Shown here: in pieces, positions 6,359 to 41,666 of the stretch
Numbering within the stretch: the stretch's first letter is position 1
Layout of the letters: each line of letters opens with the position of its first letter
NCBI RefSeq assembly: GCF_001443045.1
Contig: NZ_LKPJ01000004.1
Span: 311,292-375,291 of the forward strand
Direction of reading: 5' to 3'
Length of the DNA stretch: 64,000 nucleotides
Source: Burkholderia ambifaria
Lineage (GTDB): Bacteria > Pseudomonadota > Gammaproteobacteria > Burkholderiales > Burkholderiaceae
The notes under the pieces: model-generated
The model's input: only the letters and a program-made list of their open reading frames with translations
Told to the model about the DNA's origin: nothing
The model's database searches: none
Translations under genes and position numbers: made by a program

Positions 6359-6408
6359 TGATAGCAATGCTTGCAATTCACCGGCGAGGCGCTATCATTG
6401 ATAGCAAT
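6359..6408 (+). promoter_or_regulatory. Promoter and operator of the toxin-antitoxin pair
   Basis: TGATAGCAAT occurs twice, at 6359-6368 and 6399-6408, 40 bp apart (about four helical turns). The second copy is part of a perfect inverted repeat, GCTATCA-T-TGATAGC (6391-6405). A plausible sigma-70 promoter overlaps it: TTGCAA (6371-6376), 16-bp spacer, TATCAT (6393-6398). A ribbon-helix-helix antitoxin bound to these sites would occlude the promoter, the usual autoregulation of FitAB/VapBC pairs. Spacing and sequences are seen directly; binding is inferred. Confidence 0.65.
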
Positions 6409-6424
6409 CTGGATGGAGGGACCC

Positions 6425-7064: not shown

Positions 7065-7160
7065 TCCGGGTCGCCGCATCGCGGCAACCTGCCACCGCTT
7101 CCCGCCTTCTGCGTCGCGCGTAGCCCGTTTCACCGGGCTTCCGCGCGCGCCCGCTTCACC

Positions 7161-7204
7161 ACCAGCTTCCCACCAGCTTCCCGCCAGTTCCTTACCAGCT
7201 TCCC
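7161..7204. repeat. Four-unit 11-bp tandem repeat
   Basis: ACCAGCTTCCC occurs at 7161-7171, 7172-7182 and 7194-7204, with a degenerate unit (GCCAGTTCCTT) at 7183-7193, so the phase is exact over 44 bp. It lies in the 245-bp gap between the toxin gene and the dioxygenase gene. Confidence 0.8.
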
Positions 7205-7262
7205 GCTGATTCCCCACCGGGCTCTCGTCCCAACAGACGATGTGACGCCATCCCCGACCGGC

Positions 7263-7291
7263 CAGAATCCTTTCACGAACAACGGATTCTG
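7263..7291. promoter_or_regulatory. Inverted repeat ahead of the steroid operon
   Basis: CAGAATCC (7263-7270) and GGATTCTG (7284-7291) form a perfect 8-bp inverted repeat with 13 nt between the arms. It ends 18 nt before the start codon of the dioxygenase gene and just before its GGAGGAGG ribosome-binding site. It could be a regulator operator or an mRNA hairpin limiting translation. Confidence 0.45.
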
Positions 7292-7309
7292 AACCTGGAG
7301 GAGGCCGAC

Positions 7310-8206: not shown

Positions 8207-8215
8207 GCCAGCACG

Positions 8216-9109
8216 ATGACGATGAAACCTCTCGACAAGACGATGTCCGCGCGCGACGTGGTCGCGCAACTCGCCGACGGCATGACGATCGGCATCGGCG
8301 GATGGGGGCCGCGACGCAAGCCGATGGCGCTGGTGCGCGAGATCGCGCGCTCGAACCTGACGGACCTGACGATCGTCGCATACGGCGGTGCCGATATCGG
8401 CCTGTTGTGCGCCGCCGGCAAGGTGCGCAAGGCGGTGTTCGGCTTCGTGTCGCTCGACGTGATCCCGCTCGAACCGCATTTCCGCCGTGCCCGCGAACAG
8501 GGCCGCGTCGACGTGCTCGAGCTCGACGAAGGGATGCTGCAGCTCGGCCTGCGCGCGGCCGCCGCGCGCCTGCCGTTCCTGCCGACGCGTGCCGGGCTCG
8601 GTACCGCGCTGCTCGATCACGCGCCGCAGCTTCGCACGGTGAGTTCGCCGTATGACGACGGCGAGACGCTGCTCGCGATGCCGGCGATCGAGCTCGACGT
8701 CGCGCTGCTGCACGTGAATGCGGCCGACCGGATGGGCAACACGCGCATCGATGGTCCCGATCCGTTCTTCGATGCGTGGATGGCGCGTGCCGCGCAGCGC
8801 TGCTACGTGTCGGCGGAAACGGTCGATGCGTCGCTCGCGAGCGACGACCTCGACGCCGCGCGCCGCAACCCGTTCGAGCGCTCGCTCGTCACCGGCGTCG
8901 TGCACGCGCCGGGTGGCGCGCACCCGACGTCGTGCGGGCCGGACTACGGCTGGGACCTGCCGCACCTGCGCGCTTACTGCGCGAGCGCGGAAGACGATGC
9001 GAAGACGGCGGCGTACCTGCGCGACGTGGTCGGCCAGGACGAACGCCAGTACCTCGAAGGCGTCGGCGGCCTGTCGCACGTAACGACGCTGCCGTTGCCG
9101 ATTCTGTAA
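8216..9109 (+). CDS. ipdA: IpdA-like CoA-transferase family subunit alpha (ring C opening)
   Basis: 297 residues. Motifs GIGGWGPRRKPMALVREI, YGGADIGLLCAAGKV and FGFVSLD match IpdA of actinobacterial steroid degraders (alpha subunit of the IpdAB heterotetramer). IpdAB has a CoA-transferase fold but acts as a hydrolase that opens the last steroid ring of COCHEA-CoA. It lacks the typical glutathione/acetoacetate transferase signature. The gene is 10 nt upstream of ipdB, so both subunits are probably made together. Role assignment follows family knowledge plus the ipdABC/echA20 gene order. Confidence 0.88.
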   Translation: MTMKPLDKTMSARDVVAQLADGMTIGIGGWGPRRKPMALVREIARSNLTDLTIVAYGGADIGLLCAAGKVRKAVFGFVSLDVIPLEPHFRRAREQGRVDVLELDEGMLQLGLRAAAARLPFLPTRAGLGTALLDHAPQLRTVSSPYDDGETLLAMPAIELDVALLHVNAADRMGNTRIDGPDPFFDAWMARAAQRCYVSAETVDASLASDDLDAARRNPFERSLVTGVVHAPGGAHPTSCGPDYGWDLPHLRAYCASAEDDAKTAAYLRDVVGQDERQYLEGVGGLSHVTTLPLPIL

Positions 9110-9119
9110 AGGAGCGCCT

Positions 9120-9917
9120 GTGAGCGAATCTCTCGACCATTCCCTCGCGGAACTGATGATCGTCGCGTCCGCGCGACTCTGGCGCAACGACGGCGAAGTG
9201 CTGGCGACCGGCATCGGCACGGGCCCGCGGCTCGCGGCGGGCCTCGCGCGGCTCGCCTACAACAACGGGCTGATGCTGACCGACGGCGAAGCGTATCTCG
9301 TCGAGGAGCCGGTGCCGCTTGGGCCCCGTCCCGACGGCTATCGCGTGAAGGCGAGCGGCTGGATGACCTACGAACGCGTGTTCGACTGCCTGTGGCACGG
9401 TCGCCGCCACGCGCTTGTCATGCCGACGCAGATCGACCGCTTCGGCCAGGCGAACATCTCGTGGCTCGGCGACGACTACGCGCGTCCGAAAACTCAATTG
9501 CTCGGCGCGCGCGGCTTTCCCGGCAACTCGACGAACCACGCGAACTCGTTCTTCGTCAGTGGCCACGGCAAGCGCACGTTCGTCGAAGGTGAAGTCGACA
9601 TGGTGTGCACGGTCGGCTACAACCCGGCGCGTCGGGTGCCCGGCATGAAGACCTTCGTCGACCTGCGCAGCATCGTCACCGACCTGTGCGTGATGGATTT
9701 CGGCGGGCCCGACCATGCGATCCGCGTGCGCTCGCTGCATCCGGGCGTGAGCTTCGACGAGGTGCAGGACGCGACGGGCTTCCCGCTGGCCGCCGCGCCC
9801 GATATCGGCACGACGGCCCCACCGACTGCCGAAGACCTGCGCATCGTGCGTGCGCTCGACCCTCACAACCTGCGCGCGGCGATCGTGCGCAACAACCCGG
9901 CGCCGCGCCGCGGATGA
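9120..9917 (+). CDS. ipdB: IpdB-like CoA-transferase family subunit beta (ring C opening)
   Basis: 265 residues from GTG, with AAAGGAG just upstream (9108-9114). Recognisable family stretches are LMLTDGEAYLVEE, DRFGQANIS, RGFPGNSTNHANSF and the C-terminal FGGPDHAIRVRSLHPGVSFDEV, all typical of IpdB. It pairs with the upstream subunit to hydrolyse the remaining ring of the CoA-bound C/D-ring metabolite. Its stop overlaps the next start as ATGA (9914-9917), indicating translational coupling. Confidence 0.88.
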   Translation: MSESLDHSLAELMIVASARLWRNDGEVLATGIGTGPRLAAGLARLAYNNGLMLTDGEAYLVEEPVPLGPRPDGYRVKASGWMTYERVFDCLWHGRRHALVMPTQIDRFGQANISWLGDDYARPKTQLLGARGFPGNSTNHANSFFVSGHGKRTFVEGEVDMVCTVGYNPARRVPGMKTFVDLRSIVTDLCVMDFGGPDHAIRVRSLHPGVSFDEVQDATGFPLAAAPDIGTTAPPTAEDLRIVRALDPHNLRAAIVRNNPAPRRG

Positions 9918-28144: not shown

Positions 28145-28525
28145 GCAGTAACGGTCGGGCGCGCAACGCTGCTCCGATCGACCCCGTCCGGCCGTCTCAT
28201 GCGGCTGGGCACACCGGATGGACGGCGCGGTTCGCGCCGTTCGTCGGTCGCCGGCGGCGGTGCAGTGCAGTGCCGCGGCGGCCAACGTTTTCTCCTCCGA
28301 CCGCGCTGCGTGTACGACGCTCAAGCGGTCGCGTCCCGCAGGAAATCCTCGATGAGCGTCGCGAAATACGGCGGACATTCCTGCTGACTTCCGGGTCGTC
28401 GCGCACCCTCCCGCCGCTGGAATCGGTTGCCACCGCACCCGGCGCTTTTCAATGTCTTCAGTCGCATTCAGCGCACCAACGACCATGACGGGCGGTGCGC
28501 AGTCGCGGCCGTACAGCGCGACGTG
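28145..28525. other. Gap between infA and the MFS gene, with a possible gene remnant
   Basis: An 8-bp hairpin, ACGGCGCG-GTT-CGCGCCGT (28222-28240), lies between these convergent genes and may stop transcription from either side. The rest has no intact gene. A short minus-strand frame (28321-28467) is listed separately. Confidence 0.5.
28321..28467 (-). pseudogene. Possible C-terminal remnant of a hydrolase gene
   Basis: A 48-codon frame whose last 21 residues, QECPPYFATLIEDFLRDATA, look like the final helix of an alpha/beta hydrolase, whereas the first half is Arg/Gly-rich and featureless. No ribosome-binding site is evident. It could be a decayed gene end or chance; the resemblance rests on a short segment. 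Confidence 0.25.
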
Positions 28526-29923
28526 TCACGCTGCCTGTCGCGCGCGCCGCACGCTGAGCGCCGACGCTGCCGCGCCCGTCAACTGAACCACCGCGCCGGC
28601 GAACATCGCCGAGCGCAAGCCGGCCGTGCCGCCGTGTGCGGCGGCGAACAGCGTACCGAGCATCGCGATCCCGAGCGTCGCACCGGTCATCCGCGCGACG
28701 TTGACGAGCGCGCTTGCGGTGCCCGAACGTGCGGCTTCGACCGCGCCGACGGCGACGGTCATCAACGGGCCGGTCGCGATGCCCATGCCGAGCCCGGTCA
28801 ACGCAAGCCCGATTTCGGCGCCGATCAGATCCGGCGAACCGGCCGACGCACCGATCACGGCGAGCCCGCTCGCGATCACCGCGACCCCGCCGGCCGTCGT
28901 CGCGCGCGTGCCGACGCGCTCCGACAGCGGCCCCGAGCAGGGCGACACGACGACGAACACGAGCGCCATCGGCAGTAGCGCGAGGCCCGCGCCGGTCGAA
29001 TCGAGCCGGCCGATGCTCTGCCACGTCAGCGGCAGCAGGAACAGCACGCCGTACATCCCGAACGTCATCCCGGTGGTCGCGGCGATCGCGCCGCGAAACG
29101 CGCCGATCCGGAAGATGTCGAGCGGCACCAGTGCGGCTGCGCCGTGGCGCCGCTCGATCACGATGAAGGCGACCAACGACACGATCGCCAGGCATCCGGC
29201 GATCGCGCATGAGGCCGGCGAATCGCGGAACACGATCGCCGCATACGCGAGCGCGCCGAGCGAGAGGGCGCCCGTGAGTTGTGCTCCGCCGTCGAAGTGC
29301 CTGCCGAGCGGATCGGACGATTCCGGCACGGCGGGGATCGCGAGCAGCATCGCGGCGATGCTCAACGGCACGACCACGAAGAAGATGCTGCGCCAGCCGA
29401 AGTGCCGGATCAGCACGCCGCCGAGCGTCGGGCCGATCACCATGGCCACGCCGTTGCATGCGGCCCAGATGCCGAGCGCGCGGCCGCGCTCGACCGGGTC
29501 GCGCCACACGACGCGCACGATCGCGAGCGACGCGGGCAGCAACAGCGCCGCGCCGACGCCGGCCAGCGCGCGTGCGCCGATCAGCACCGCCACCGACGGC
29601 GCGAGCGCGCACAGCAGCGACGCGACGGTGAAGAGGGCTGTGCCGGCCATGAAGATGCGGCGCCGGCCGAGCAGGTCGGCGAGCAGGCCGCCGGTCAGCA
29701 GCAGCACCGCGTAAGTGAGGTTGTAGCTGTCGACGACCCATTGCAATGCGCCGACGCCCACGTGGAAATAGTCGCCGATCGCACGCGTCGCGAGATTGAT
29801 GACGGCCGTGTCGACCTGCGCCACGAGCACGGCGAGGCAGAGGGTCAGAAGGGTCGCGCTGCGACGTTTGAAAATGATGAGGAAACCGGGGGCGGGCACG
29901 ATGGGGCGTTCCGGATGCGTCAA
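28526..29923 (-). CDS. MFS drug-efflux transporter, DHA2 (14-TM) type
   Basis: 465 residues from a TTG start (LTHPERPIVPAPGF), chosen because GGAGTAGG sits 9 nt upstream; an ATG 30 codons earlier (30013) gives a polar, unlikely N-terminus. It has 14 predicted helices. MFS motif A appears as GLLADLLGRRRIFMAG and motif B/C region as ALAGVGAALLLPASLAIVRVV, typical of EmrB/QacA proton-driven multidrug exporters. Transcribed away from the unknown operon across a shared 690-bp AT-rich region, so it could export the same product, but that is conjecture. Confidence 0.85.
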   Translation of the reverse strand: MTHPERPIVPAPGFLIIFKRRSATLLTLCLAVLVAQVDTAVINLATRAIGDYFHVGVGALQWVVDSYNLTYAVLLLTGGLLADLLGRRRIFMAGTALFTVASLLCALAPSVAVLIGARALAGVGAALLLPASLAIVRVVWRDPVERGRALGIWAACNGVAMVIGPTLGGVLIRHFGWRSIFFVVVPLSIAAMLLAIPAVPESSDPLGRHFDGGAQLTGALSLGALAYAAIVFRDSPASCAIAGCLAIVSLVAFIVIERRHGAAALVPLDIFRIGAFRGAIAATTGMTFGMYGVLFLLPLTWQSIGRLDSTGAGLALLPMALVFVVVSPCSGPLSERVGTRATTAGGVAVIASGLAVIGASAGSPDLIGAEIGLALTGLGMGIATGPLMTVAVGAVEAARSGTASALVNVARMTGATLGIAMLGTLFAAAHGGTAGLRSAMFAGAVVQLTGAAASALSVRRARQAA

Positions 29924-29947
29924 ATGGATCAACCTACTCCGGACCTG

Positions 29948-29965
29948 CTGACAACGGCCTGTCAG
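29948..29965. promoter_or_regulatory. Inverted repeat ahead of the MFS gene
   Basis: CTGACA-acggcc-TGTCAG is a perfect 6-bp inverted repeat lying 25 bp upstream of the proposed TTG start. Its form fits a TetR- or MarR-type operator controlling the efflux gene. No regulator gene is adjacent. Confidence 0.4.
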
Positions 29966-30288
29966 TAGCCGGTGAATCGAATCGCACGGTACCCGCATCG
30001 AATCTCCATCCATTCCGCTGGGTTTTGCTGCGACGAGGGCTCCACTAATGGCAGCTTTGCTGCGGCCAGGTTGAATTCCCGGTCAACATCTTGCCCGGTG
30101 CGCGCGGCCGTCGCGAACGCCGGTCACTTTCCCTCGCGCCTGCGTCGGCCATCAGATCGACGGATATCGCGCTGTTCCGCTTGCGGCACAGCGAGGTCGT
30201 TGTTGCAATGCGGAATTTCCATGGTCAAAACCGAGTAGTGCCGTGCTTTTTAAGTGCGGTGGGGCATTTCCCTCATCCGGATTGAAAT

Positions 30289-30304
30289 TTAGTACGGGTA
30301 CTAA
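30289..30304. promoter_or_regulatory. Perfect palindrome in the AT-rich region
   Basis: TTAGTAC-GG-GTACTAA, 7-bp arms with a 2-bp centre. It ends 72 bp upstream of the proposed -35 box at 30377, a position suited to an activator or a repressor that loops. No regulator gene in the operon would bind it. Confidence 0.45.
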
Positions 30305-30376
30305 TATTTAATTTGTTTCGAATTGAAAATTAATTAATTAATCTCAAAATAAGGATGGAAATCATCTGAATTGGTG

Positions 30377-30406
30377 TTGACGCGTCGCGCTCGGGAAAAA
30401 TAGAAT
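30377..30406 (+). promoter_or_regulatory. Sigma-70 promoter for the unknown operon
   Basis: TTGACG (30377-30382, five of six consensus bases), an 18-bp spacer, and TAGAAT (30401-30406, five of six). It is the best promoter match on the + strand in this region and predicts a transcript start near 30413, leaving a leader of about 200 nt before the first ATG. Confidence 0.55.
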
Positions 30407-30613
30407 TCGTCGCCAATAAGATTCGTTTTGATTTTTAGTGAATTTTTTGCCATTTCTGGTGAAACAGAAGATTGGTTTTTGGATCAATTTATTTTTCGAA
30501 TCCCCGGGTTCTGCTCATTTCACGAGCACGGTTTTATCGTGTGGCCAAATTGACCGGTCCATTCCGTATGGATTCGTCGTGCCCATTCAAACTGAAGCGA
30601 TGGAGGCGCACCA

Positions 30614-31867
30614 ATGGAAGAAAGAAAAGAATCTCCGCTGGCAACGGCATCGAATGTCTACTTCGGCCCATCCGCGCAAAGGAAATGGCTGGGACGCGGC
30701 GCTCCACGCGATGTGGACGTCGTTCTGCTGACGCATCCTCGCGACCGAGCCGATGTCGTACGGATGTTTCCATGGGCCGGCACGCTCGACGACGACGCAC
30801 TGGCTGATTTGCTGGACTGTCTGCAGCCCGTTTATGGCGAGATCATCGAGGCGAAAGACATCAACATCGGAATCCTCTTCCTGCCTATTCTTGCGGAAGA
30901 CATGATCGACCCCAGAAAGCGGGCATCCAGCCGCAACCGCATGAAGAAGGAGGGGCTGACCAAGGCAGCCGCGATGGGCGCGCGGCACGTCTGCCTGGGC
31001 GGTCTGACCGGGGCGCTGACGCAATACGGCCGCCGCATCGAAGCGCACTCGAGGGAACTCGGTATCGAATTGACGACCGGCCATGCGGTGACGTCGGTCT
31101 CGATCGTCCGTCAGTTCGACAAGGCACTGTCCGAGTCGGGGTTGAACGGGAACGACGTCGTCCTTGCCATTCTCGGCGTCGGTAGTGTGGGCGCGGGGGT
31201 GGCCAGGCTGCTGGCGCACTCGCCGCGGGTAACGCGGCCGGCGGAACTGATCCTGGTGGACACGCTGCAACAGCAGGACCGGGTTCGCGCCCTGGCGGAG
31301 GAATTGGCGGCATGTTCGCCGATGCGGGTTTCAGTAGAGGCGCTTCCGACGCGTCACGCGTTGCCGGATGGCAGCCGGTGCTATCGCGATGCCAACGTAA
31401 TCGTCAGCGCGGTCAGCACGCCATCCATCCTCGATATCGACCTCGTGCGCGCCGGCACGATCCTGATCGACGACAGCCAGCCTTATTGCTGGGATCGCAA
31501 CGCAGCGTGGGCGCGCGTGCGGGTACGTGGAGACATCCTCCCATGCGATGCGGGGCTTGTCGACGTAGGCGAGATCGCATACCGGTCATACTTTCCGTTT
31601 GATTTCGCCGACGATGTCGGACACGGCAGCGTCGTTTCATGGTCGTGCCTCGCCGAGGGGCTGTTGCGCGCGAGTCTGCCGCAGCTCGCGAGCAATATCG
31701 GCGAGGCCGATGTGGCGCAACTGCTTGCCTACGAGCGTGCGTTCGACGACATGAAATTCGGAATTCCGCCGCTCCAATGCGGAAAGCATGTGCTGGATGT
31801 CGCCGCTTTCCGCCGCTTTTTGCGCGATGCGGCCGGACCGTCCGGCGTTCGGGGAGGTCGTCCGTGA
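30614..31867 (+). CDS. Acyl-ACP-reductase-like oxidoreductase of the unknown operon
   Basis: 417 residues. Layout parallels cyanobacterial long-chain acyl-ACP reductase (AAR): FLPILAEDM near 89-97, LGGLTGALT at 128-136, TTGHAVTSVSIVRQ at 154-167, Rossmann GVGSVG at 188-193, DANVIVSAVSTP near 259-270, TILIDDSQP near 282-290, and Cys311 in DILPCDAGLV where AAR carries its acyl-accepting cysteine. AAR reduces an acyl thioester to an aldehyde with NADPH; that activity here is inference. Shikimate-dehydrogenase-like proteins share the Rossmann part. GGAGG lies 7 nt before the ATG. The stop overlaps the next start (GTGA). Confidence 0.7.
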   Translation: MEERKESPLATASNVYFGPSAQRKWLGRGAPRDVDVVLLTHPRDRADVVRMFPWAGTLDDDALADLLDCLQPVYGEIIEAKDINIGILFLPILAEDMIDPRKRASSRNRMKKEGLTKAAAMGARHVCLGGLTGALTQYGRRIEAHSRELGIELTTGHAVTSVSIVRQFDKALSESGLNGNDVVLAILGVGSVGAGVARLLAHSPRVTRPAELILVDTLQQQDRVRALAEELAACSPMRVSVEALPTRHALPDGSRCYRDANVIVSAVSTPSILDIDLVRAGTILIDDSQPYCWDRNAAWARVRVRGDILPCDAGLVDVGEIAYRSYFPFDFADDVGHGSVVSWSCLAEGLLRASLPQLASNIGEADVAQLLAYERAFDDMKFGIPPLQCGKHVLDVAAFRRFLRDAAGPSGVRGGRP

Positions 31868-33072
31868 AAACGTTTCCGATCTACCGCGGATGCAACCAGT
31901 GCGGGATGCCGTTGCACTACGACGCGCTGATGAACGGCACCGATGCCGACGAGGCCGTTGCATCTGGGCTATGCGCACACTGTTCGAGCATGCAGTCTGT
32001 CCGACGCAAGGAATACGAACCGGATGCCGATCATGAATGGTTGCTCGACGCGATCATTTCCGCTGCGGACGGCGAGCGCACCTGGCGTCACAAGGCGCTC
32101 TCCGTCGCCAAACGCGTGCCGATCGTCGGCGACGGCAGTCTAGGGGCGGCAGCGGCCATGCTCGATTCGATACCGACACGTGAGCCGCGCTCGACCTATG
32201 CCGCAATGGTGCTCTACAGCGGCGGCAAGGACAGCACCTACATGCTGGTTCAACTCGCCGAGAAAGGGCTGAATGTTTGCGCGTGGATGCTCGATCCCGG
32301 TTATCAGTCACCGCAGACCCTCGATAGCGCGCGGCGCGTTACCGAGAAGCTCGGTATTCCGCTAGTCATCGAGCGCCCCGACAAAGCGCTCACGGATGCG
32401 CTGTTCCGATCGGGATTCTCGATAGACGAAAATTCGGATGTCGATCTGCAGAAAGGGGCAATGACGTACGGCTCCGCGTGCTGGCCGTGTTTTTCGTTGA
32501 TCGCAGTCAGTGCGAGCGCATTCGCGAATCGCCATCGCATCCCGCTCTGCTTCATCGGCACGCAGAAAGGGCAGAACCGGTTGAATCTCGAAGGTACGGG
32601 CGTGTTGTCCGCGCGGGCATTGCCCAAGGTCAACGATCTCGTTGCCAAGTTCGTGCAGCCATTCCGCAAAGTGATTCCGGACCACTCGGGTTCGCTGGAC
32701 GCGGATCCAGACGACATCCGGTTTCCGACCGTGCTCGTGCCGTACTACAAACTGATACGAAAGCCCGCGCGGGAGATCCAGATTGCGCATATCGAGCGAT
32801 ATGACTGGATTCTCCCGAAAAACACGGGCGCTTGCAGTTCGAACTGCATGATCAACGAGTTGGGCCGGGCGGTCATGCGTTCGAGGTTCGGTTTCGATCT
32901 GTATCAGGTGATCGACGCGAACGAACGTCGGCTCGGTCACGCGCCGGATCGGGCGGCGTCCAGCTCACCCGATCCTGCCATCGTGCGTCTCGGCGCGACG
33001 ATGCTCGGCTTGAGCGAGCAGGAGGCCACCGAATTCGGCGTGACGATTCGAAAGGGAAATCACGATGCGTAA
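31864..33072 (+). CDS. PP-loop ATPase with an N-terminal zinc ribbon and further cysteine pairs
   Basis: 402 residues from GTG overlapping the previous stop, with GGAGG upstream. C10/C13 and C37/C40 form a ribbon; the ATP-pyrophosphatase loop SGGKDST is at 119-125; two more pairs, C206/C209 (GSACWPCF) and C324/C328 (GACSSNC), lie in the catalytic half. The overall plan resembles N-acetyl-sugar amidotransferases (WbpG/PseA type) and tRNA thiolases, which adenylate a carbonyl then add N or S. No HisH-type glutaminase gene is adjacent, so ammonia or sulfur must come from elsewhere. The overlap with the next gene is 8 nt. Substrate unknown. Confidence 0.75.
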   Translation: MKTFPIYRGCNQCGMPLHYDALMNGTDADEAVASGLCAHCSSMQSVRRKEYEPDADHEWLLDAIISAADGERTWRHKALSVAKRVPIVGDGSLGAAAAMLDSIPTREPRSTYAAMVLYSGGKDSTYMLVQLAEKGLNVCAWMLDPGYQSPQTLDSARRVTEKLGIPLVIERPDKALTDALFRSGFSIDENSDVDLQKGAMTYGSACWPCFSLIAVSASAFANRHRIPLCFIGTQKGQNRLNLEGTGVLSARALPKVNDLVAKFVQPFRKVIPDHSGSLDADPDDIRFPTVLVPYYKLIRKPAREIQIAHIERYDWILPKNTGACSSNCMINELGRAVMRSRFGFDLYQVIDANERRLGHAPDRAASSSPDPAIVRLGATMLGLSEQEATEFGVTIRKGNHDA

Positions 33073-34279
33073 CCTGAGCGAAACCGAAGCGTACTCCTTT
33101 GCCGATCACTTCCTGAGCCGCGCCGTCTTCACGCTTTCACGCGTCGTGGGCGTGAAGAACGTCACGCGACCCTTCTGGAACCGCTGGCGTGCGGCGCTGT
33201 TCGACCAGAACACGCTGGATCGCTTTCTTGCCGCGTTGCATGGTCTTTCCGACTGGCCGACGAAGGGAATGGAATTCCTGCGCGACGAGATTCGGCAGGT
33301 CGAGGCGATGCTGCCCAGAATGTCCGACGAGGAGGCCATCGCGCACTATCGGCGGCTGTCCTTCCTTGCCCATCTGGTCCAGTGGGGGTGTCTGCCGCTT
33401 TCGGATGCGAAGATGGCGGCCTATCGGCATTGTCGCGACTTCTACGTCCTGGCTGAACGTCGGGCATTCGGCGCGCGATTCGCCCGTCTGCGCGTCGACT
33501 GGAAACACAAGCCGATGTGGGCGAATTTGCATTTTCCCGAGACGCCGCTGCCGTCGGGGAAGATCCCGTTGATCGTAATCGTGCACGGCATGGACGACGT
33601 CAAGGAGGAGCACCTCGCGAGCGAGCTGCTGTTTTCGGAAGCGGGTTTCGCCGTGCTGTGCATTGATGGACCAGGGCAAGGCGAAGCCTTTCTGCTTGAC
33701 GGTGCGACATGGCCCGAGAACTTCGACGAGGCGATCGTCGCGGCCGTCGACGCGTTGAGCGACTATCCGCAGATCGATACGGAAGGCTATGCCATTGCCG
33801 GCATCAGTTGGGGCGGCATGTGGGCTTACAAGATCGCCGCAATCGACCCGCGCGTGAGCGCGATTCTCGATCTGGGCGGCCCTGTCGACGCACGCGAATT
33901 CAACAAGCTGCCGTTCTTCCTGAAAAGCAAGTTTTGCCAGATTCTCGGCATTACGTCGGTCAGCGACGCTCGAACCGTGGCGGATCACTTCGCCATTCGT
34001 GACGTCGCGATGCTCGAAAACATCCGCGCTCGCGTCCATATCGTTCATGGCGGACGCGACCCGCTTGTTTCGGTGGCGGACAAGACATGGCTGCGCGATA
34101 CCTTGAACGGGCTCGGGCGGTCCGACGGCGTCAGACTGACACTGTTCGCCGACGGCGACCATTGCTGTACGCAATACGTGACGGAGGTCCGACGGGCGGC
34201 AGCCGCCGATTTTCTCGACGCGTACATGCAGCGCATCGGCGCGCGATACCAGTCTGATCGTCGTCTGCCGCACGCATAG
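33065..34279 (+). CDS. Alpha/beta hydrolase related to C-C bond hydrolases
   Basis: 404 residues: a helical N-terminal domain (1-150) followed by an alpha/beta hydrolase core. VIVHGMDDVKEEH at 171-183 supplies the oxyanion loop, IDGPGQGEAF at 200-209, nucleophile Ser248 in AGISWGG, an Asp in HGGRDPLVS and His in DGDHCCTQYV. This pattern, including the helical domain and GDHCC box, matches the 2,6-dihydroxypseudooxynicotine hydrolase group, which cut C-C bonds beside a ketone. A dipeptidyl or ester hydrolase is possible. Together with the two preceding genes it forms the probable biosynthetic core. Confidence 0.78.
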   Translation: MRNLSETEAYSFADHFLSRAVFTLSRVVGVKNVTRPFWNRWRAALFDQNTLDRFLAALHGLSDWPTKGMEFLRDEIRQVEAMLPRMSDEEAIAHYRRLSFLAHLVQWGCLPLSDAKMAAYRHCRDFYVLAERRAFGARFARLRVDWKHKPMWANLHFPETPLPSGKIPLIVIVHGMDDVKEEHLASELLFSEAGFAVLCIDGPGQGEAFLLDGATWPENFDEAIVAAVDALSDYPQIDTEGYAIAGISWGGMWAYKIAAIDPRVSAILDLGGPVDAREFNKLPFFLKSKFCQILGITSVSDARTVADHFAIRDVAMLENIRARVHIVHGGRDPLVSVADKTWLRDTLNGLGRSDGVRLTLFADGDHCCTQYVTEVRRAAAADFLDAYMQRIGARYQSDRRLPHA

Positions 34280-34321
34280 ACGTTCGTCGCATACACCGGT
34301 GCTACATCAGGTTTCTTCATT

Positions 34322-35287
34322 ATGGAACGCATCACGCTCATGCCCCCGTGGGTCGGGTACGGCTTCGTTTGCGCGTGCCTCTTGACCGCGGGCTGTACAA
34401 AATCGCAGGAAACTTATCACGGCTATATCGAAGGGCAGTTTTCCTATTTGTCGGCGCCGTACTCCGGGAACCTGAAGACTCTGCGCGTGGCACGCGGCGA
34501 CCGTGTCGAAGCTGGCGCTGTCGTCTTCGAGATCGGCGCTCCAGACCTGGAACAGGCAATCAAGCGCCAGTATCACCAGTGGCAATCGTCGCTGGACCTG
34601 CTCGGCGACCTGGAACAAGGCAAGCGTTCATCGGAAATCGATACGGTGAAGGCACAGCTCGAACAGGCACGGGCGAGCGCCGTTCTTTCAACGCGTCGGC
34701 TCGCCCGTGCCGAAGCCGACTACGGGATACATGCGATCTCGCTCGATCAGCTCGAACGCGAGCGTGCGGCCGCCCGAACGGACAATGCGCGAGTCAGCGA
34801 GCTTGCCAGCCAACTGAAGACTGCGCGCTTGCCGGCACGAGACGGTCAGCAGCGTTCACAACGACAGAGCGCCGACGCACTGCAGGCCGAATACGAACGG
34901 CTCCAGACGCAATACCGGCAACGGTCCGTGCAGGCTCCCGGAACGGGTGTCGTCGTCGATACGTTCTTTACGCCGGGTGAGTGGGTCGTTGCCGGCAACC
35001 CGGTGGTCAAGGTTCTCGTCGATCGCAATACGAAGGTGCGCTTCTTCGTGCCTGAGACCGCTCTGGCCAATCTGCGCGTCGGTCATGTCGTGACCCTCGC
35101 ATGCGACGGGTGCGAACGCGGCTATTCGGCGACGATCAGCCATATCTCGCCGGACGCGGAATATACACCGCCTGTCATCTACAGCAATGACGCGCGTTCG
35201 AAGCTCGTGTTTCTCGTCGAGGCGCAGCCTGACACCGTTGCGGCGCGCAGTCTGCATCCCGGCTTGCCGATCGAGGTGACGCCATGA
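34322..35287 (+). CDS. HlyD-family membrane-fusion lipoprotein of an ABC exporter
   Basis: 321 residues. The signal ends in lipobox LTAGC with Cys25. The biotinyl-lipoyl-like halves are TLRVARGDRVEAGAVVFEIG (about 55-75) and the later VQAPGTGVVVDTFFTPGEWV, with a coiled-coil hairpin between (about 80-190, rich in Ala/Gln/Arg/Glu). It bridges an inner-membrane ABC pump and an outer-membrane channel. Its stop overlaps the ATPase gene start (ATGA). No strong ribosome-binding site precedes this ATG; a second ATG six codons on is possible. Confidence 0.85.
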   Translation: MERITLMPPWVGYGFVCACLLTAGCTKSQETYHGYIEGQFSYLSAPYSGNLKTLRVARGDRVEAGAVVFEIGAPDLEQAIKRQYHQWQSSLDLLGDLEQGKRSSEIDTVKAQLEQARASAVLSTRRLARAEADYGIHAISLDQLERERAAARTDNARVSELASQLKTARLPARDGQQRSQRQSADALQAEYERLQTQYRQRSVQAPGTGVVVDTFFTPGEWVVAGNPVVKVLVDRNTKVRFFVPETALANLRVGHVVTLACDGCERGYSATISHISPDAEYTPPVIYSNDARSKLVFLVEAQPDTVAARSLHPGLPIEVTP

Positions 35288-36210
35288 ACGGGGCGACGCC
35301 GCTGATCGATGTGCATGAGCTGAACAAGCATTTCGGCACACGGCACGTCGTCAAGAACCTGAGCCTGCAGGTCGGTCGTGGCGAGATATTCGGCTTTCTC
35401 GGTCCGAACGGGAGCGGCAAGACGACCTCGTTACGCATGATGTGCGGACTGCTGACGCCGGACTCCGGCAGCGGGACCTGCCTCGGATTCGACATCCTGA
35501 CGGAACGCCAGGAGATCAAGCGGCGAGTCGGCTACATGACGCAGCGCTTTTCGTACTGGGAGGACCTGACAGTGCGGGAGAACCTCGACTTTGTCGCGCG
35601 ACTATATGCAATCGACGCAAGAAAGGAACGCGTCGCGCGGATCCTCGCCGAGATGGGGCTGGAGTCGCGCTCGAATCAGCTGACCGGCTCATTGTCGGGT
35701 GGCTGGAAGCAGCGCGTGGCGCTTGCCGCTGCGCTGCTGCAGTCGCCCGAACTGCTGCTGCTCGACGAACCGACGGCCGGTGTCGACCCGGGCGTGCGCA
35801 GGGAGTTCTGGGAGGAACTGCACCGCCTGGCCGCACGCGGCATTTCGGTGCTCGTCAGCACGCACTATATGGACGAGGCCGAGCGTTGCCACAAGCTGGC
35901 CTACATCTCGTACGGCACGCTGCTGGCACACGGCGAAGCCGATGAGCTCGTCCGGCGGCATGCACTCCACACCTGGTCGGTGTCGGGGGGCGATCTCGTA
36001 CGTTTGAACGATCGGCTAAAGGGCCGACCGGGCGTCGAGCAGGTAATTGCGTTCGGGCGTGCGCTGCACGTATCGGGGCGCGACGGCGCCGTACTCGGTG
36101 AGAGTCTCGAAGCGGTCGGCGGCAATGGCATCGAGATCCACAGAATCGACACGAATCTCGAACACGTTTTCCTGCATTTGATGAAGGACGCATCCGGGGA
36201 GCCTGGCTGA
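35284..36210 (+). CDS. ABC exporter ATPase subunit
   Basis: 308 residues. Walker A GPNGSGKTTS at 40-49, signature LSGGWKQR near 138-145, Walker B LLLLDEPTAGVDPG near 157-170, followed by the H-loop in VLVSTHYMDEAE. This is the nucleotide-binding subunit of an ABC-2 exporter of the YbhF/drug type. The last 80 residues form the usual accessory tail. It couples ATP hydrolysis to export with the permease encoded 2 nt downstream. Confidence 0.92.
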   Translation: MNGATPLIDVHELNKHFGTRHVVKNLSLQVGRGEIFGFLGPNGSGKTTSLRMMCGLLTPDSGSGTCLGFDILTERQEIKRRVGYMTQRFSYWEDLTVRENLDFVARLYAIDARKERVARILAEMGLESRSNQLTGSLSGGWKQRVALAAALLQSPELLLLDEPTAGVDPGVRREFWEELHRLAARGISVLVSTHYMDEAERCHKLAYISYGTLLAHGEADELVRRHALHTWSVSGGDLVRLNDRLKGRPGVEQVIAFGRALHVSGRDGAVLGESLEAVGGNGIEIHRIDTNLEHVFLHLMKDASGEPG

Positions 36211-36212
36211 TC

Positions 36213-37343
36213 ATGATCGGATTCTCGGTTTCCCGCTGGTGGAGCATGGTGACGAAAGAGTTCCTGCAGATCCGCCGCGATCGCGTGACGCTTGGAATGA
36301 TCGCTGTGTTGCCGATCGTACAGCTGGCACTGTTTGGCTTTGCGATCAACAGCGACCCAAAGCATCTTCCGACGATCGTACTCGCGGACGACGCAAGTGA
36401 ATTTTCGCGATCGCTCGTCGCCGGGATGCGCAATACGGGCTATTTCGATGTCCGGGACGGCTTGTTTTCCGAACGGGCGGCACGTGACGCCCTGCAAAAG
36501 GGAACCGTACAGTTCGTCGTCAGCGTGCCGCACGATTTCTCGCGACGGCTGGTGCGCAGCGAGCATCCGGAAATCCTGGTCGAGGCGGATGCGACCGATC
36601 CCGCCGCGACGGGAAATGCGATCGCCGCGTTCAACACGATGGTGCGAACGGTGCTGGACAAGGATCTGACGGGAGTGTTGGCGATAACCGCGCCACCGCA
36701 CGCGTTCTCGGCCCGTGTGCACAAGATCTACAATCCGGCCGGCGTTACGCAGTACAACATCATTCCGGGATTGATGGGCGTCATCCTGTCGATGACGATG
36801 GTCATGATGACGAGTCTTGCCATTACGCGTGAACGTGAACGCGGCACGATCGAAAACATCCTTGCGTCACCGGCAACATCCATCGAGGTGATCTGCGGAA
36901 AAATCGTTCCGTACATCCTGATCGGCGTCCTGCAGTGCACGATTATCCTGCTGGCGGCCCGATTCGTATTCAGCGTTCCATTCGAAGGCAATCCCGCAAC
37001 CGTCTACTGCCTCGCGTCGTTGCTGATCCTCGCGAACCTGATGGTCGGCATCGCCATCTCGTCGGTCGCACGGAATCAGTTGCAGGCGATGCAGATGACG
37101 TTCTTCTATTTCCTGCCGAGCGTCTTGCTCTCGGGATTCATGTTTCCGTTTTCAGGTATGCCGGGCTGGGCGCGGCTGGTCGGCAACGGCCTGCCACTGA
37201 CGTATTTCAACAGGGCCATTCGCGGTGTTCTCTTGAAGGGAAGCGGATGGAGCGAAATATGGCCCGATGCGTCGGCGATGGTTGTTTTCGCGCTGGTTGC
37301 AATGACGATCGGCCTGCTCGCATACCGAACCACACTCGATTGA
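36213..37343 (+). CDS. ABC-2 type permease
   Basis: 376 residues: a TM helix near 25-45 (MIAVLPIVQLALFGFAI), a large extracytoplasmic domain (45-175), and five more helices including LMGVILSMTMVMMTSLAITRERERGTIENILASP, the conserved ABC-2 elbow motif. It matches the YbhS/YbhR permease group, whose pumps work with HlyD-type fusion proteins. The homodimer forms the membrane channel of the exporter. Confidence 0.88.
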   Translation: MIGFSVSRWWSMVTKEFLQIRRDRVTLGMIAVLPIVQLALFGFAINSDPKHLPTIVLADDASEFSRSLVAGMRNTGYFDVRDGLFSERAARDALQKGTVQFVVSVPHDFSRRLVRSEHPEILVEADATDPAATGNAIAAFNTMVRTVLDKDLTGVLAITAPPHAFSARVHKIYNPAGVTQYNIIPGLMGVILSMTMVMMTSLAITRERERGTIENILASPATSIEVICGKIVPYILIGVLQCTIILLAARFVFSVPFEGNPATVYCLASLLILANLMVGIAISSVARNQLQAMQMTFFYFLPSVLLSGFMFPFSGMPGWARLVGNGLPLTYFNRAIRGVLLKGSGWSEIWPDASAMVVFALVAMTIGLLAYRTTLD

Positions 37344-37349
37344 ACGACG

Positions 37350-38819
37350 ATGGCACAACGAACCCGACCTGGCCGCCGCGCTTGCCGCTCGATTGCGGTT
37401 CTGCCGATCACGGTTGCGATCGTCGTGGGGCAAGGGTGCAGCCATCCCGCGTTTGTCCCGCGATCCGCGAGCGATCTGGCATTGCCTTCCACATTCATGG
37501 GAATGCGCGCCGGTTCGACCGAGCGAGACGGTGTTTACGCACTTGCCGACGACGATACGCGCTGGTGGTCGCGCTTTGGCTCGCCGGCACTGAATGCGCT
37601 TGTCGCGCAGGCGATGGAGGATAGTCCGTCCATACGGAGCGCGGAGTCGCGACTGGTCGAAGCCACGAAGTATCTTGCGGGCCAACGTGGCGCAAGCCGC
37701 TATCCGCAGATCGACTTCGGCGCGTCGGTCAGGAAGGAGCAGTTGAATACCGCCTCGGCCGGCCTGCCGATGATTCCGAATCCATCGCCGTTCATGCTCT
37801 ACAACACGAACGTGAGCGTTCGATACGACTTCGACTTCTTCGGTGCGCAGCACCATCGAATCGCGGCGAAACGGTACGAAGCGGCGCTGAGAAAGCATCA
37901 GGCGGACGCGGCACGCCTGACGCTGGCCGGCAATATCGCCGCTGCGGCGGTCCGGGAAGGACGGCTGCGTGACGAAATCGAGCTGAACGAGGTGGTGTTG
38001 CGGAACCGGCAAGCCGTTCGACAGACGCTGCACGAACGATATGGAATCGGCAGCGTGGCTTATCGGGAAACGACCGAGGCGGATTCGGACGTCGACCGAA
38101 TCGAAGCAGACCTGGCGGCATTGCGCGCGGAACTGCTGAAAACTCGGTTCCAACTAGCGGTTTATGCGGGTGTTCCGTCGCCCGAATTGCTGCCACGGTT
38201 TCGTCTGGGCGATTTGCAGTTGCCGCGAGACCTGCCGTCGATCGTTCCGTCGGAACTCGTGCGTCAACGGCCCGACATTCTCGCAGCGGAGGCGAGCCTG
38301 CATATCGCCGGGGAACTGGCCGGCGTCGCCACGGCGAATCTCTACCCTCGGATCGAGCTGGGTGCGAGCATCGGGTCATCGCCTCTGGTGCTCAGCCAGT
38401 TGTTCGCAGGCGGAGCGGCGATCTGGAACATGGGTGCCCAGCTAAGCGCACCGCTCTTTCACGGCGGAGAATTGCGTGCGGCGCGGGATGCGGCGTATGC
38501 CGCTTACGATGCCACGTTTGAAGAATATCGGAAGGTCGTGCTAGGCGGGTTGCAGAGTGTCGCAGATGCAATGACCGAAATCGATCGCGATACGACTGCG
38601 CTGCAGGCCCGCACGGCCGTCGTGCAACGCCAACAGACGGATCTCGAAATGACGCAACGCCAGTTCGAAATCGGCAGCGCCGACCGGCTACGCGTGCTAC
38701 GCGCCGAGTATGCGTACGATCTGGCGCGGGTCGAGGTGATTCGCCTTCGCGCGGCCAGGATGGCCAGTACGGTTTCATTCTTCGTCGCCGTCGGTGGCGA
38801 TGTGAATCGTACGCGTTGA
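37350..38819 (+). CDS. NodT-family outer-membrane efflux lipoprotein
   Basis: 489 residues. A signal-like start with a cysteine at about 30 (VVGQGCSHPAF) and DTRWWSRFGSPALNALVAQAMEDSPSIRSAESRL, the usual opening of TolC/OprM family channels. Two repeated OEP domains follow, each with strand-helix-helix pattern (LVRQRPDILAAEASLHIAGE in the second). It completes the tripartite exporter. Last gene of the seven-gene operon. Confidence 0.88.
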   Translation: MAQRTRPGRRACRSIAVLPITVAIVVGQGCSHPAFVPRSASDLALPSTFMGMRAGSTERDGVYALADDDTRWWSRFGSPALNALVAQAMEDSPSIRSAESRLVEATKYLAGQRGASRYPQIDFGASVRKEQLNTASAGLPMIPNPSPFMLYNTNVSVRYDFDFFGAQHHRIAAKRYEAALRKHQADAARLTLAGNIAAAAVREGRLRDEIELNEVVLRNRQAVRQTLHERYGIGSVAYRETTEADSDVDRIEADLAALRAELLKTRFQLAVYAGVPSPELLPRFRLGDLQLPRDLPSIVPSELVRQRPDILAAEASLHIAGELAGVATANLYPRIELGASIGSSPLVLSQLFAGGAAIWNMGAQLSAPLFHGGELRAARDAAYAAYDATFEEYRKVVLGGLQSVADAMTEIDRDTTALQARTAVVQRQQTDLEMTQRQFEIGSADRLRVLRAEYAYDLARVEVIRLRAARMASTVSFFVAVGGDVNRTR

Positions 38820-38849
38820 CGGCAGGCACGCCGGAGCCGCGACTGCTGC

Positions 38850-38865
38850 GTCTCCGGCCGGAGAC
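38850..38865. terminator. Palindrome between convergent operons
   Basis: GTCTCCGGCCGGAGAC, self-complementary over 16 bases (6-bp stem with a GGCC loop if folded), lies 30 nt after the efflux-lipoprotein stop and before the end of the convergent aldolase gene. No T tract. Confidence 0.4.
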
Positions 38866-38922
38866 TGCCCTATCCCGTGCCCATGGCGCGACGGGGCAGG
38901 GCAAGGCTGGGCAGGGCTTCCG

Positions 38923-39954
38923 TTACGCCGCCACCTCCCGCGCGCGAACCATCGTCAGCGCCGCATCCTCGATCATGTCCTCCTGCCCGCCGACGAGCCG
39001 CTGCCGGCCCAGTTCGACGAGAATGTCGCGGGCTGGAATCCCGTACTTCGCTTCCGCACGCTTCGCGAACAGCAGGAACGACGAATAGACGCCCGCATAG
39101 CCGAGCGTCAGTGCATCGCGGTCGAGGCGGATAGGTACGTCCATGATCGGCACGACGAGATCTTCCGCGACGTCGGAAATCGCGAACACGTCGACGCCGG
39201 TCTCGATCCCCATCCGGTCGCATACCGCGACGAACACTTCCATCGGCGTATTGCCCGCACCCGCACCGAGGCCGGCCGCGGCGGCGTCGATCCGGTTCGC
39301 ACCGGCGGCGACCGCTGCGACCGAGTTCGCGACGCCCATCGCGAGGTTGTGGTGGCCGTGGAAGCCGAGTTCCGTTTCCGGCTTGAGCGCGGCGCGCACC
39401 TGGCCGATGCGCGCGGTCACGTCGTCGGGCAGCATGTGGCCGGCCGAATCGGTGATGTAGATGCAGTTCGCGCCGTACGACTCCATCAGCTTCGCCTGCA
39501 CGACGAGCTGCTCGGGCGACGACATGTGCGCCATCATCAGGAAGCCGACCGTATCGAGCCCGAGCGAGCGCGCAAGGCCGATATGCTGCTCCGACACGTC
39601 GGCTTCGGTGCAGTGCGTCGCGACGCGGATCGTGCCGACGCCGAGTGCGTGCGCCATGCGCAGGTGCTCGACGGTGCCGATACCGGGCAGCAGCAGCGCC
39701 GACACCTTTGCCTGCTTCAGTTCCGGAATCACGGCGCTCAGGTACGCCTCGTCCGTATGCGCCGGAAAACCGTAGTTAACCGAAGCGCCGCCGAGCCCGT
39801 CGCCGTGCGTGACCTCGATCAGCGGCACGCCGGCCGCGTCGAGCCCGCGCGCGATGTCGCGCATCTGGTCGAGCGTGATCTGGTGACGTTTCGGGTGCAT
39901 CCCGTCGCGCAACGACATGTCGTGGACGGTGATCTTCTTGCCTGCAAGTGACAT
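38923..39954 (-). CDS. hsaF: 4-hydroxy-2-oxovalerate (HOA-type) aldolase of ring-A pathway
   Basis: 343 residues. [18 protein letters not shown] (metal and substrate site, residues 10-27), [15 protein letters not shown] (metal-binding HxH) and the communication domain at the C-terminus match class II pyruvate aldolases BphI/MhpE/HsaF/TesG. It splits 4-hydroxy-2-oxoalkanoate into pyruvate and an aldehyde, channelled to the dehydrogenase encoded upstream. The gene order hydratase-dehydrogenase-aldolase is the standard meta-cleavage tail, here placed with steroid genes. Confidence 0.9.
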
Positions 39955-39970
39955 CGTGTGACTCCTCGAC

Positions 39971-40870
39971 TCAAGCGGTGGCGGCCGTCGCGGCCTGCAT
40001 CTGTTCGGCGAAACGCTCGGCCGTGGCGGCCGCGGCGGCGGTCATGATGTCGAGGTTGCCCGCATACTTCGGCAGGTAGTCGCCGAGCCCCTCGACTTCC
40101 ATGAAGACCGACACGCGGTTGCCGTCGAACACCGGGCCGTTCTTCAGCGTGTAGCCGGGCACGTAGCGCTGTACTTCCTTGACCATCGCATGCACCGAGG
40201 CGGTGATCGCGTCGACGTCGGGCGGGCCGTCGGTCAGGCAGTGGATCGTGTCGCGCATGATCAGCGGCGGCTCGGCCGGGTTGATCACGATGATCGCCTT
40301 GCCCTTGCGTGCGCCGCCGACCTGTTCGATCGCGCCGGACGTCGTGCGCGTGAATTCGTCGATGTTCTTGCGCGTGCCGGGGCCCACTGAACGCGACGAC
40401 ACGGTCGCGATGATCTCGCCGTACGCGACCGGCTGCACGCGCGACACCGCGTACACCATCGGGATCGTTGCCTGGCCGCCGCACGTCACCATGTTCACGT
40501 TCGCCTGCGCGCTGTCGAGATGCGCGTCGAGGTTCACCGGCGGTACACAGTACGGCCCGATCGCGGCGGGCGTCAGGTCGATCATCTTCACGCCGAGCGC
40601 GGTGAGCTTGTCGGAGTTGTCGCGGTGCACGTAGGCCGACGTGGCGTCGAACGCGATGCGGATCTCGTCGTCGACGACGTGCGGCAGCAGCCCGTCGACG
40701 CCGCGGTCGGTGGTTTTCAGGCCGAACTCGCGGGCTCGCGCGAGGCCGTCGGACGCCGGGTCGACGCCGACCATCCACACGGGTTCGAGCACCGGCGAGC
40801 GGCGCAGCTTGTACAGCAGGTCGGTGCCGATGTTGCCCGGCCCGATCAGTGCGCATTTGATTTTCTTCAT
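39971..40870 (-). CDS. hsaG: Acylating aldehyde dehydrogenase of ring-A pathway
   Basis: 299 residues. NAD motif [14 protein letters not shown] at 9-22, catalytic Cys130 in [12 protein letters not shown], and a GP[G][12 protein letters not shown] segment typical of BphJ/MhpF/HsaG/TesF. It oxidises acetaldehyde or propionaldehyde to the CoA ester in a complex with the aldolase. In HsaFG of steroid degraders the natural product is propionyl-CoA. 16 nt separates it from the aldolase gene. Confidence 0.92.
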
Positions 40871-40883
40871 CAGGGTCGTTCCT

Positions 40884-41666
40884 TTAGATAAAGCGGACGT
40901 CGCACCCGCCGATGCCGGAAATGTGCATCGACAGCGCGTCGCCGGCGGTGACCGGAATCAGCTTCGCGAGCGAGCCGGACAGCACGATCTCGCCGGCGAG
41001 CAGCGGCACGTCGTATGCGGCGAGGGTGTTCGCGAGCCACGCGACCGCGTCGGCGGGGTGGCCGAGCGCCGCATCGCCGCGGCCTTGCGCGACGGGCTCG
41101 CCGTTCTTCTCGATCGTCATCTCGCATGCGGCGAGATCGAGCGTGCGCGGATCGACGCGCGCGTCGCCGAGCACGTATACGCCGCACGACGCGTTGTCGG
41201 CGACGGTGTCCTCGATGCGGATCGCCCAGTCGCGGATGCGCGAATCGACGATCTCGAAGCAGGGTGCGACGGCGGCCGTCGCGGCGATCACATCCGTGCG
41301 GTCGATGCCGGGGCCGCGCAGGTCGCGCGCGAGGATGAACGCGATCTCGCCTTCGGCGCGCGGCGCGATCAGCGACTCGGCGGCGATCGCCTCGCCGGCC
41401 GCGTAGTGCATGCCGGACAGCAGGATGCCGAAATCGGGCTGGCGCACGTTCAGCATGTCCTGCACGGCCTGGCTTGTCACGCCGATCTTCTTGCCGACGA
41501 CCGCTTCGCCATGTTCGACGCGGCGTTCGATGAAGCGTTGCTGGATCCGGTATGCATCGTCGAGCGACAGGCGGCGCGGACGGCTCGACAGCGGCGCGAC
41601 CGGCGCGCGCGCGTGCCACGCGGCGTACAGCTCGTCGCCGAGCGTCGTATGCAGGCGGGAAGACAT
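40884..41666 (-). CDS. hsaE: 2-hydroxypentadienoate-type hydratase of ring-A pathway
   Basis: 260 residues of the FAH-like hydratase family: the opening [36 protein letters not shown], and the metal-binding [12 protein letters not shown] (EIAF acid pair). HsaE/TesE/MhpD/BphH enzymes add water to the 2-hydroxydienoate released by TesD/HsaD. The stop is 14 nt from the dehydrogenase start, so these three genes form one unit. Confidence 0.9.

Follow-up and report, generated by a model that had tools for sequence, protein, structure and literature searches.

A seven-gene operon of Burkholderia ambifaria as a candidate biosynthesis-and-export cassette with TAD-like and PP-loop enzymes

Introduction

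A seven-gene operon is situated at positions 30614-38819 of a 64,000-nucleotide stretch of Burkholderia ambifaria DNA (contig NZ_LKPJ01000004.1), which is termed the window here. The first three genes encode enzymes that recur together, in the same order, in two bacterial phyla, and the last four encode a pump. The enzyme trio is a real unit, and the operon is very probably dedicated to the biosynthesis and export of a product. The overall reading proposed here is of a compact mobile biosynthesis-and-export cassette in which an acyl group would be converted to an amide, the oxygen of which is then replaced; it is given a probability of about 0.45. The full chemical scheme is tentative.

An initial annotation of the window had described seven genes on one strand, which are present as stated, all on the + strand, and had interpreted them as an operon in which three enzymes produce a small molecule and a pump exports it. 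The observation itself, the trio as a unit and the lack of polyketide synthase (PKS) or nonribosomal peptide synthetase (NRPS) genes within the operon have been borne out. The label given to gene 1 and the placing of the exporter in the core of the system have had to be revised. The seven genes are as follows.

30614-31867, + strand: gene 1, acyl-thioester-processing enzyme with the AAR/PigE/TAD fold, nearest to TAD; in alignment, Cys345 falls in the active-site Cys region of TAD
31864-33072, + strand: gene 2, zinc-ribbon and PP-loop (AANH) enzyme with a GTG start; SGGKDS at residues 119-124, CWPC at 206-209, C328; amidotransferase-like full-length fold
33065-34279, + strand: gene 3, alpha/beta-hydrolase with invariant Ser248, Asp332 and His366; related to 2,6-dihydroxy-pseudo-oxynicotine hydrolase and AntI
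34322-35287, + strand: gene 4, periplasmic membrane-fusion lipoprotein of the HlyD/YbhG type with an LTAGC lipobox (Pfam, NCBIfam)
35284-36210, + strand: gene 5, ABC exporter ATPase, DrrA/NodI/RbbA-like (Pfam, NCBIfam)
36213-37343, + strand: gene 6, ABC-2 type permease (Pfam, NCBIfam)
37350-38819, + strand: gene 7, NodT-type outer-membrane channel (TIGR01845, 299 bits versus a cut-off of 210)

The enzyme genes overlap by 4 nt (31864-31867) and 8 nt (33065-33072), as had been noted at the outset, and neighbouring pump genes are separated by small gaps or, in one case, overlap by 4 nt. GTG at 31864 is taken as the start of gene 2 because all relatives align from there and because it yields the 4-nt overlap; the ATG at 31639 is a mechanical open reading frame call only. 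All seven genes are under purifying selection, with ratios of nonsynonymous to synonymous substitution rates (dN/dS) of 0.08-0.25 between the window and other Burkholderia alleles. The recurrence of the trio in order in two phyla, together with these ratios, argues that the operon is not a chance arrangement. A role in anti-phage defence was considered and rejected, as the three enzymes have no PADLOC match.

Conservation of the enzyme trio

Full-length relatives of gene 2 are found in Burkholderia, Paraburkholderia bryophila, Paludibacterium purpuratum, Frankia sp. CIT1, Streptomyces niger, S. cyaneus and, on a plasmid, Streptomyces NBC_00470. Gene 1 lies directly upstream of gene 2 in all of these loci, which span two phyla, and gene 3 lies directly downstream in all except that of NBC_00470. 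The order and close spacing of the trio are the same in Burkholderia, Paraburkholderia, Paludibacterium, Frankia and Streptomyces. In addition, the pairwise distance matrices of the three proteins are correlated with r values of 0.989-0.997 (nine loci). Co-occurrence of the three enzymes in other genomes had been proposed initially as a check on the operon, and the check turned out in its favour.

Distant gene 1-gene 2 pairs, on opposite strands and without gene 3, are present in two contigs of metagenome-assembled genomes (MAGs; L013 1120-6093 and L014 1712-9790). Gene 3 is lacking in the Streptomyces plasmid locus and in both MAG pairs, so that genes 1 and 2 constitute the minimal core. Both MAG pairs adjoin hybrid histidine kinases that have a hydrophobic N-terminus and double receiver domains, with LuxN as the best NCBIfam match.

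The Streptomyces loci carry a FabF-type ketosynthase (KS) and an acyl carrier protein (ACP) beside the trio genes, and those of S. niger and S. cyaneus add a FabH-type KS, a fatty acyl-AMP ligase (FAAL) and a second alpha/beta-hydrolase. These dedicated KS, ACP and FAAL genes suggest that the trio acts on carrier-bound acyl chains.

Next to the trio, P. bryophila and S. cyaneus have a glutamine-dependent NAD synthetase (NadE) and a second FrsA/AntI-like hydrolase, and S. niger has a degenerate NadE (L007 9661-12856; L011 13943-18737; L010 14789-15739). A role of the cluster NadE in self-resistance was considered. In P. bryophila it is an extra copy, as a further NadE of 46% identity is encoded at another place in the genome, but the cluster copy of S. 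cyaneus is the only copy found, and that of S. niger is a remnant.

Gene 1, a TAD-like enzyme

Gene 1 has no Pfam family. NCBIfam places PigE at the top (60 bits) and AAR second (26.3 bits), both weak matches; for the AAR family TIGR04058, the score is below the cut-off of 449.7 bits. When the gene 1 profile is compared with solved structures, TAD scores 126 bits, PigE 40 and AAR 26. By fold, the predicted model (pLDDT 86) is likewise nearer to TAD (Z 41.5, 367 residues) than to AAR (Z 34.0, 321 residues). Thus, the initial label, acyl-reductase-like, points to the wrong end of the family: among solved structures, the carmabin NRPS TAD, and not AAR or PigE, is closest to gene 1.

Gene 1 has the fold, catalytic Cys and dinucleotide motif of AAR-type enzymes, with Cys345 and GVGSVG invariant or nearly so. 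It also has the fold, TTGH, DDSxP and active-site Cys of the carmabin-type TAD. The trio proteins share TTGH and DDSxP with TAD, and both motifs also occur in the MAG relatives and in a relative from Pantoea; in PigE there is SGN, and DDS is missing. In alignment, Cys345 falls opposite a TAD cysteine, 2241 by our count, which is at most three residues from the Cys2238 of the PDB title. It has been proposed that a domain at this position gives rise to the terminal amides of carmabin, vatiamide and hectoramide (PMC10949194), and from the PDB titles and this report we infer that the TAD of the structures is that amidating domain. Because TAD is the nearest solved relative by the Z values above, gene 1 is no less likely to form an amide than an aldehyde. 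On this analysis, an amide would be the outcome with slightly better than even odds and an aldehyde with about one chance in three.

A rather unlikely alternative is that gene 1 encodes a true NAD(P)H-dependent acyl-ACP reductase, the fatty aldehyde of which is converted to an amine, amidine or heterocycle and then exported. The NCBIfam ranking is in keeping with such a route, as is the conservation of the nucleotide-binding GxGSxG and the catalytic Cys, and PigE and TamH, relatives that share the fold, are aldehyde-forming thioester reductases (PMC8341465; PMC9594044). However, TAD is nearer to gene 1 than AAR or PigE both by fold and by sequence, the operon has no aminotransferase, and the PP-loop enzyme encoded by gene 2 requires an adenylatable oxygen, i.e. 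that of an amide or acid and not of an aldehyde.

Gene 2, a PP-loop enzyme

The gene 2 protein begins with a zinc ribbon (C10, C13, C37 and C40, all invariant), which is followed by the PP-loop SGGKDS. The predicted model (pLDDT 82) gives Z 19.5 over 303 residues to the N-acetyl sugar amidotransferase 8wex, and all other entries in the fold list are at Z 12.2 or less, including the nitrile synthetase ArtA at Z 11.9. Zinc ribbon and PP-loop fold are therefore shared with the sugar amidotransferases over the whole chain.

Gene 2 also carries the invariant cysteines C206, C209 and C328, at +83, +86 and +205 from the PP-loop Asp. In CtaC, the Fe-S cysteines are at +77, +80 and +207 from this Asp, and the Fe-S cluster is needed for thioamide formation on a carrier protein (PMC6772006). 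A PP-loop with CxxC...C at matching spacing, as is typical of the Fe-S AANH enzymes TtcA, TtuA and CtaC, is thus present in gene 2. The C206xxC209...C328 set is absent from all seven sugar amidotransferases sampled; the SC52 sugar enzyme has a CxxC at the first site, without the same third-cysteine motif. In a phylogenetic tree, the trio PP-loop proteins form a fully supported clade of their own, apart from both comparison groups. The initial designation, PP-loop ATPase, is right as to the PP-loop and can be made more precise: the protein has an amidotransferase-like fold with a cysteine motif of the CtaC/TtuA [4Fe-4S] type.

Membership in the sugar amidotransferases was considered and rejected on score, partner genes and motif, the shared fold nonetheless. 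The match to TIGR03573 (N-acetyl sugar amidotransferase) is 33.7 bits versus a cut-off of 203.2. No ammonia-supplying partner of the HisH/HisF type is found in the operon; HisF-, HisH- or AsnB-type genes adjoin five of the seven sampled sugar amidotransferases.

The fold together with the Fe-S-type cysteine motif points to an exchange of oxygen for sulfur (giving a thioamide) or for nitrogen on an amide. By our analysis, sulfur insertion would take a little over half of the probability, nitrogen insertion about a quarter and nitrile formation or another reaction about a fifth. If gene 2 inserts ammonia or dehydrates in the manner of the sugar amidotransferases, QueC and ArtA, the product of the operon is an amidine or nitrile and not a thioamide. 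As a complete explanation this is improbable, albeit not negligible. Consistent with it are the closeness of the fold to 8wex, the listing of ArtA, the related PP-loop genes that lie beside asnB-like glutaminases in other loci, and the NAD synthetase, which has a glutaminase domain, of the P. bryophila and S. cyaneus loci. The low TIGR03573 score, the lack of a HisH/HisF or AsnB partner in the operon and the three-cysteine motif missing from the sugar enzymes argue otherwise, and thioamide formation is preferred here.

Other PP-loop proteins were encountered. NRPS-embedded PP-loop domains (L015, L019, L023, L027, L029, L030, L032, L086 and L087) show CxxC...STNC in those that were aligned, and perhaps form a thioamide or amidine in the course of assembly-line synthesis. 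A large family of PP-loop proteins of ~390 amino acids, with FMYSGGKDSTY and LPCVSC motifs, is found mostly in Streptomyces and other Actinobacteria (L044-L083). A stand-alone PP-loop protein (L175) displays CtaC-like spacing (+77/+80/+206), but its neighbouring gene is unrelated.

Gene 3, an alpha/beta-hydrolase

Gene 3 matches the C-C hydrolase of the nicotine pathway, 2,6-dihydroxy-pseudo-oxynicotine hydrolase (2jbw, E 8e-20), and AntI (6hxa, E 3e-11). It shares with C-C hydrolases the alpha/beta-hydrolase similarity and the conserved Ser248, Asp332 and His366. The homology behind the initial name, C-C hydrolase, is thus confirmed; carbon-carbon cleavage itself is suggested by that homology. 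Judging from its sequence relatives, gene 3 could trim or cyclise the product, which is the least certain step of the proposed scheme.

The exporter and a pump-only allele

The fusion protein, ATPase, ABC-2 permease and NodT outer-membrane channel are all present in the one operon, as expected of a tripartite exporter. Each of the six proteobacterial trio loci, which represent three genera, has the four pump genes directly downstream of the three enzyme genes. The initial description of a complete tripartite exporter is therefore sound with regard to the families and their position, but the core of the system does not include it.

One Burkholderia genome (G051) has, at the same chromosomal site, the leader, the promoter and four intact pump genes, with the trio absent (L140 = G051:C1:176602-187402, 5200-9817). 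The pump proteins are 81-92% identical, and no gene 2 ortholog was found in the G051 genome. Compared with its nearest relative, the G051 pump shows dN/dS of 0.065-0.23, the same range as pairs that carry the trio. The simplest reading is that an ancestor of G051 had the full operon and lost the producer genes, the pump being kept by selection. Export of the product by the pump, which was part of the initial interpretation, becomes more likely because of this allele, and the position of the pump behind the proteobacterial trios adds to it; its cargo would be the trio product.

The pump might instead be an independent multidrug exporter that merely shares the promoter of the trio, which is considered unlikely. 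Its persistence alone in G051 would fit, as would the trio loci of Actinobacteria, in which no pump is seen, and the 45%-identical pump paralogs in most Burkholderia (a match in 44 of 65 genomes). In opposition to this, the pump follows the trio in every proteobacterial locus, and its close orthologs within the genus are confined to the four trio genomes and G051.

Proposed pathway

In the proposed scheme, gene 1 would take an acyl thioester onto its active-site cysteine and release, most likely, a primary amide, as has been proposed for TAD domains. The acyl source in Burkholderia is probably the ACP of the ordinary fatty acid synthase or coenzyme A, and in Streptomyces it would be supplied by the dedicated ACP, KS and FAAL genes beside the trio. 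Gene 2, an ATP-using enzyme with a probable [4Fe-4S] site, would adenylate the amide oxygen and then replace it; a thioamide, formed with sulfur, is a likelier outcome than an amidine, formed with nitrogen, or a nitrile, formed by dehydration. Gene 3, as a serine hydrolase of the C-C-hydrolase/AntI group, may trim or cyclise the product. The pump of lipoprotein, ATPase, permease and channel would carry the product across both membranes and protect the producer.

Several points weigh against this scheme. Over its full length, gene 2 has the fold of sugar enzymes that insert nitrogen, and the operon contains neither a sulfur-donor nor an ammonia-donor gene. TAD crystals contain NAD(H), such that a redox reaction yielding an aldehyde is conceivable for gene 1, and aldehydes are what PigE and TamH make on its fold. 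No pump is seen in the Frankia and Streptomyces trio loci within about 10 kb on each side. Lastly, the G051 pump could serve another substrate, or its loss of the trio could be recent.

Leader, promoter and candidate operator

The region ahead of the operon had been described as a single AT-rich promoter region, and this agrees with what is found: the leader (30250-30613) has 40% GC, below the 62% of the operon and the 67% of the window, and contains one sigma-70-like site.

30290-30303, strand not assigned: perfect palindrome TAGTAC-GG-GTACTA (TAGTACGGGTACTA), candidate operator, ~75 bp upstream of the promoter
30377-30406, + strand: sigma-70-like promoter TTGACG-18-TAGAAT, the best match in a scan of the region (10/12)

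The promoter is kept in all five Burkholderia alleles, the pump-only allele included. The palindrome occurs once in the window and in none of 100 shuffles, and its extended form, ATTTAGTACNNGTNCTA, has exactly one match across the 8.1 Mb genome; it is partly conserved in the other alleles. Within the operon, no internal promoter or terminator is strong enough to exceed chance, and there is no Rfam match to a known RNA or riboswitch at 29000-40000.

The unique palindrome upstream of the promoter, together with the LuxN-matching sensor kinases that adjoin the MAG gene pairs, raises the question of whether the trio makes a cell-cell signal, as opposed to a toxin or antibiotic. This is quite improbable: the operon has no sensor or regulator gene, and the LuxN match is confined to the kinase part, with a score far short of the cut-off.

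Insertion site and distribution

The operon and an adjacent major facilitator superfamily (MFS) gene form a variable region of the chromosome.

28385-38922, strand not assigned: accessory insert with the MFS gene and the seven-gene operon, between conserved backbone segments

The same site was compared by BLASTN in 12 Burkholderia genomes. The backbone on either side, which reaches to around 28384 and resumes near 38923, is 85-94% identical. In one version of the site (L139), about 300 bp separate the two flanks and the site is empty; another has the MFS gene only (L149, in G018), and a third is the pump-only version of G051. The GC content at third codon positions of the seven operon genes is 0.70-0.79, compared with 0.87-0.92 in four genes nearby; this difference suggests that the operon has a foreign origin.

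Gene 2 orthologs are present in 4 of 65 Burkholderia species, in only one (that of the window itself) of 369 genomes sampled from the class, and in 2 of 393 Streptomyces, where both loci had already been found otherwise. Overall, the operon is a rare accessory insert that was probably acquired horizontally. A plasmid origin was considered and rejected; Streptomyces NBC_00470 is the only case in the plasmid records with full-length relatives of genes 1 and 2.

The MFS gene (28526-30013, - strand) is of the EmrB efflux type, is divergent from the operon and belongs to the same variable region. The right flank (38923-41666, - strand) carries aromatic meta-cleavage genes, with a 4-hydroxy-2-oxovalerate aldolase by Pfam and, as judged by eye, a likely acetaldehyde dehydrogenase and 2-oxopent-4-enoate hydratase.

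Significance

Every protein family in the operon is known, and the combination has not been met in the literature or the sequence data searched. That no described cluster has this enzyme set was an initial claim, and a literature search, the scope of which did not extend to MIBiG, likewise found none. As of 2019, closthioamide was called the only bacterial thioamide-containing nonribosomal peptide identified (PMC6772006). If the proposed scheme is true, three enzymes with no assembly line would lead in few steps from primary fatty-acid metabolism to natural products of the thioamide/amidine type. It would also allow a direct test of the cooperation between free-standing TAD-like and Fe-S PP-loop enzymes. 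The trio, pump-only and empty versions at one chromosomal site constitute a natural experiment on production versus immunity.

A broader and more speculative possibility, itself doubtful, is that a free-standing TAD-like amidating enzyme and an Fe-S PP-loop enzyme form a widely scattered minimal module that turns ordinary fatty-acyl-ACP into thioamides or amidines without NRPS or PKS. The hydrolase would accompany this module in proteobacteria and Actinobacteria, but not in the two MAG contigs, and Burkholderia would have provided it with a pump of its own, with pump-only strains being immune.

Comparison with known systems

The TAD of the carmabin NRPS (PDB 9e4s, 9e4u, 9e4x, 9e50 and 9e56) resembles gene 1 in its full-length fold, TTGH, GxGSVG, DDSxP and catalytic-Cys region. 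The identity is 27% over the aligned part, and gene 1 differs in that it is free-standing, with no NRPS. The acyl-thioester reductases PigE, TamH and AAR have the fold, catalytic Cys and dinucleotide site in common with gene 1, but the similarity is weaker than that to TAD, and the operon is without an aminotransferase or ADO partner.

N-acetyl sugar amidotransferases (WbuX/TIGR03573; 8wex) are like gene 2 in the zinc-ribbon and PP-loop architecture and in the whole fold (Z 19.5). Gene 2 differs from them in a score far below the family cut-off, in the extra CWPC...C, in having no HisH/HisF partner and in having no sugar pathway nearby. AntI and 2,6-dihydroxy-pseudo-oxynicotine hydrolase resemble gene 3 in sequence and in Ser/Asp/His, but their partner genes and substrates are unrelated to the operon.

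CtaC, the thioamide synthetase of closthioamide, has a PP-loop and CxxC...C at a spacing nearly equal to that of gene 2, as judged from the published CtaC positions (PMC6772006). It belongs to an NRPS-independent pathway, the cluster of which has no sulfur-mobilising gene (PMC6772006), as is the case in the present operon. Gene 2 differs from CtaC in its N-terminal zinc ribbon and amidotransferase-like fold, and the operon differs in that none of the other closthioamide genes are seen in it.

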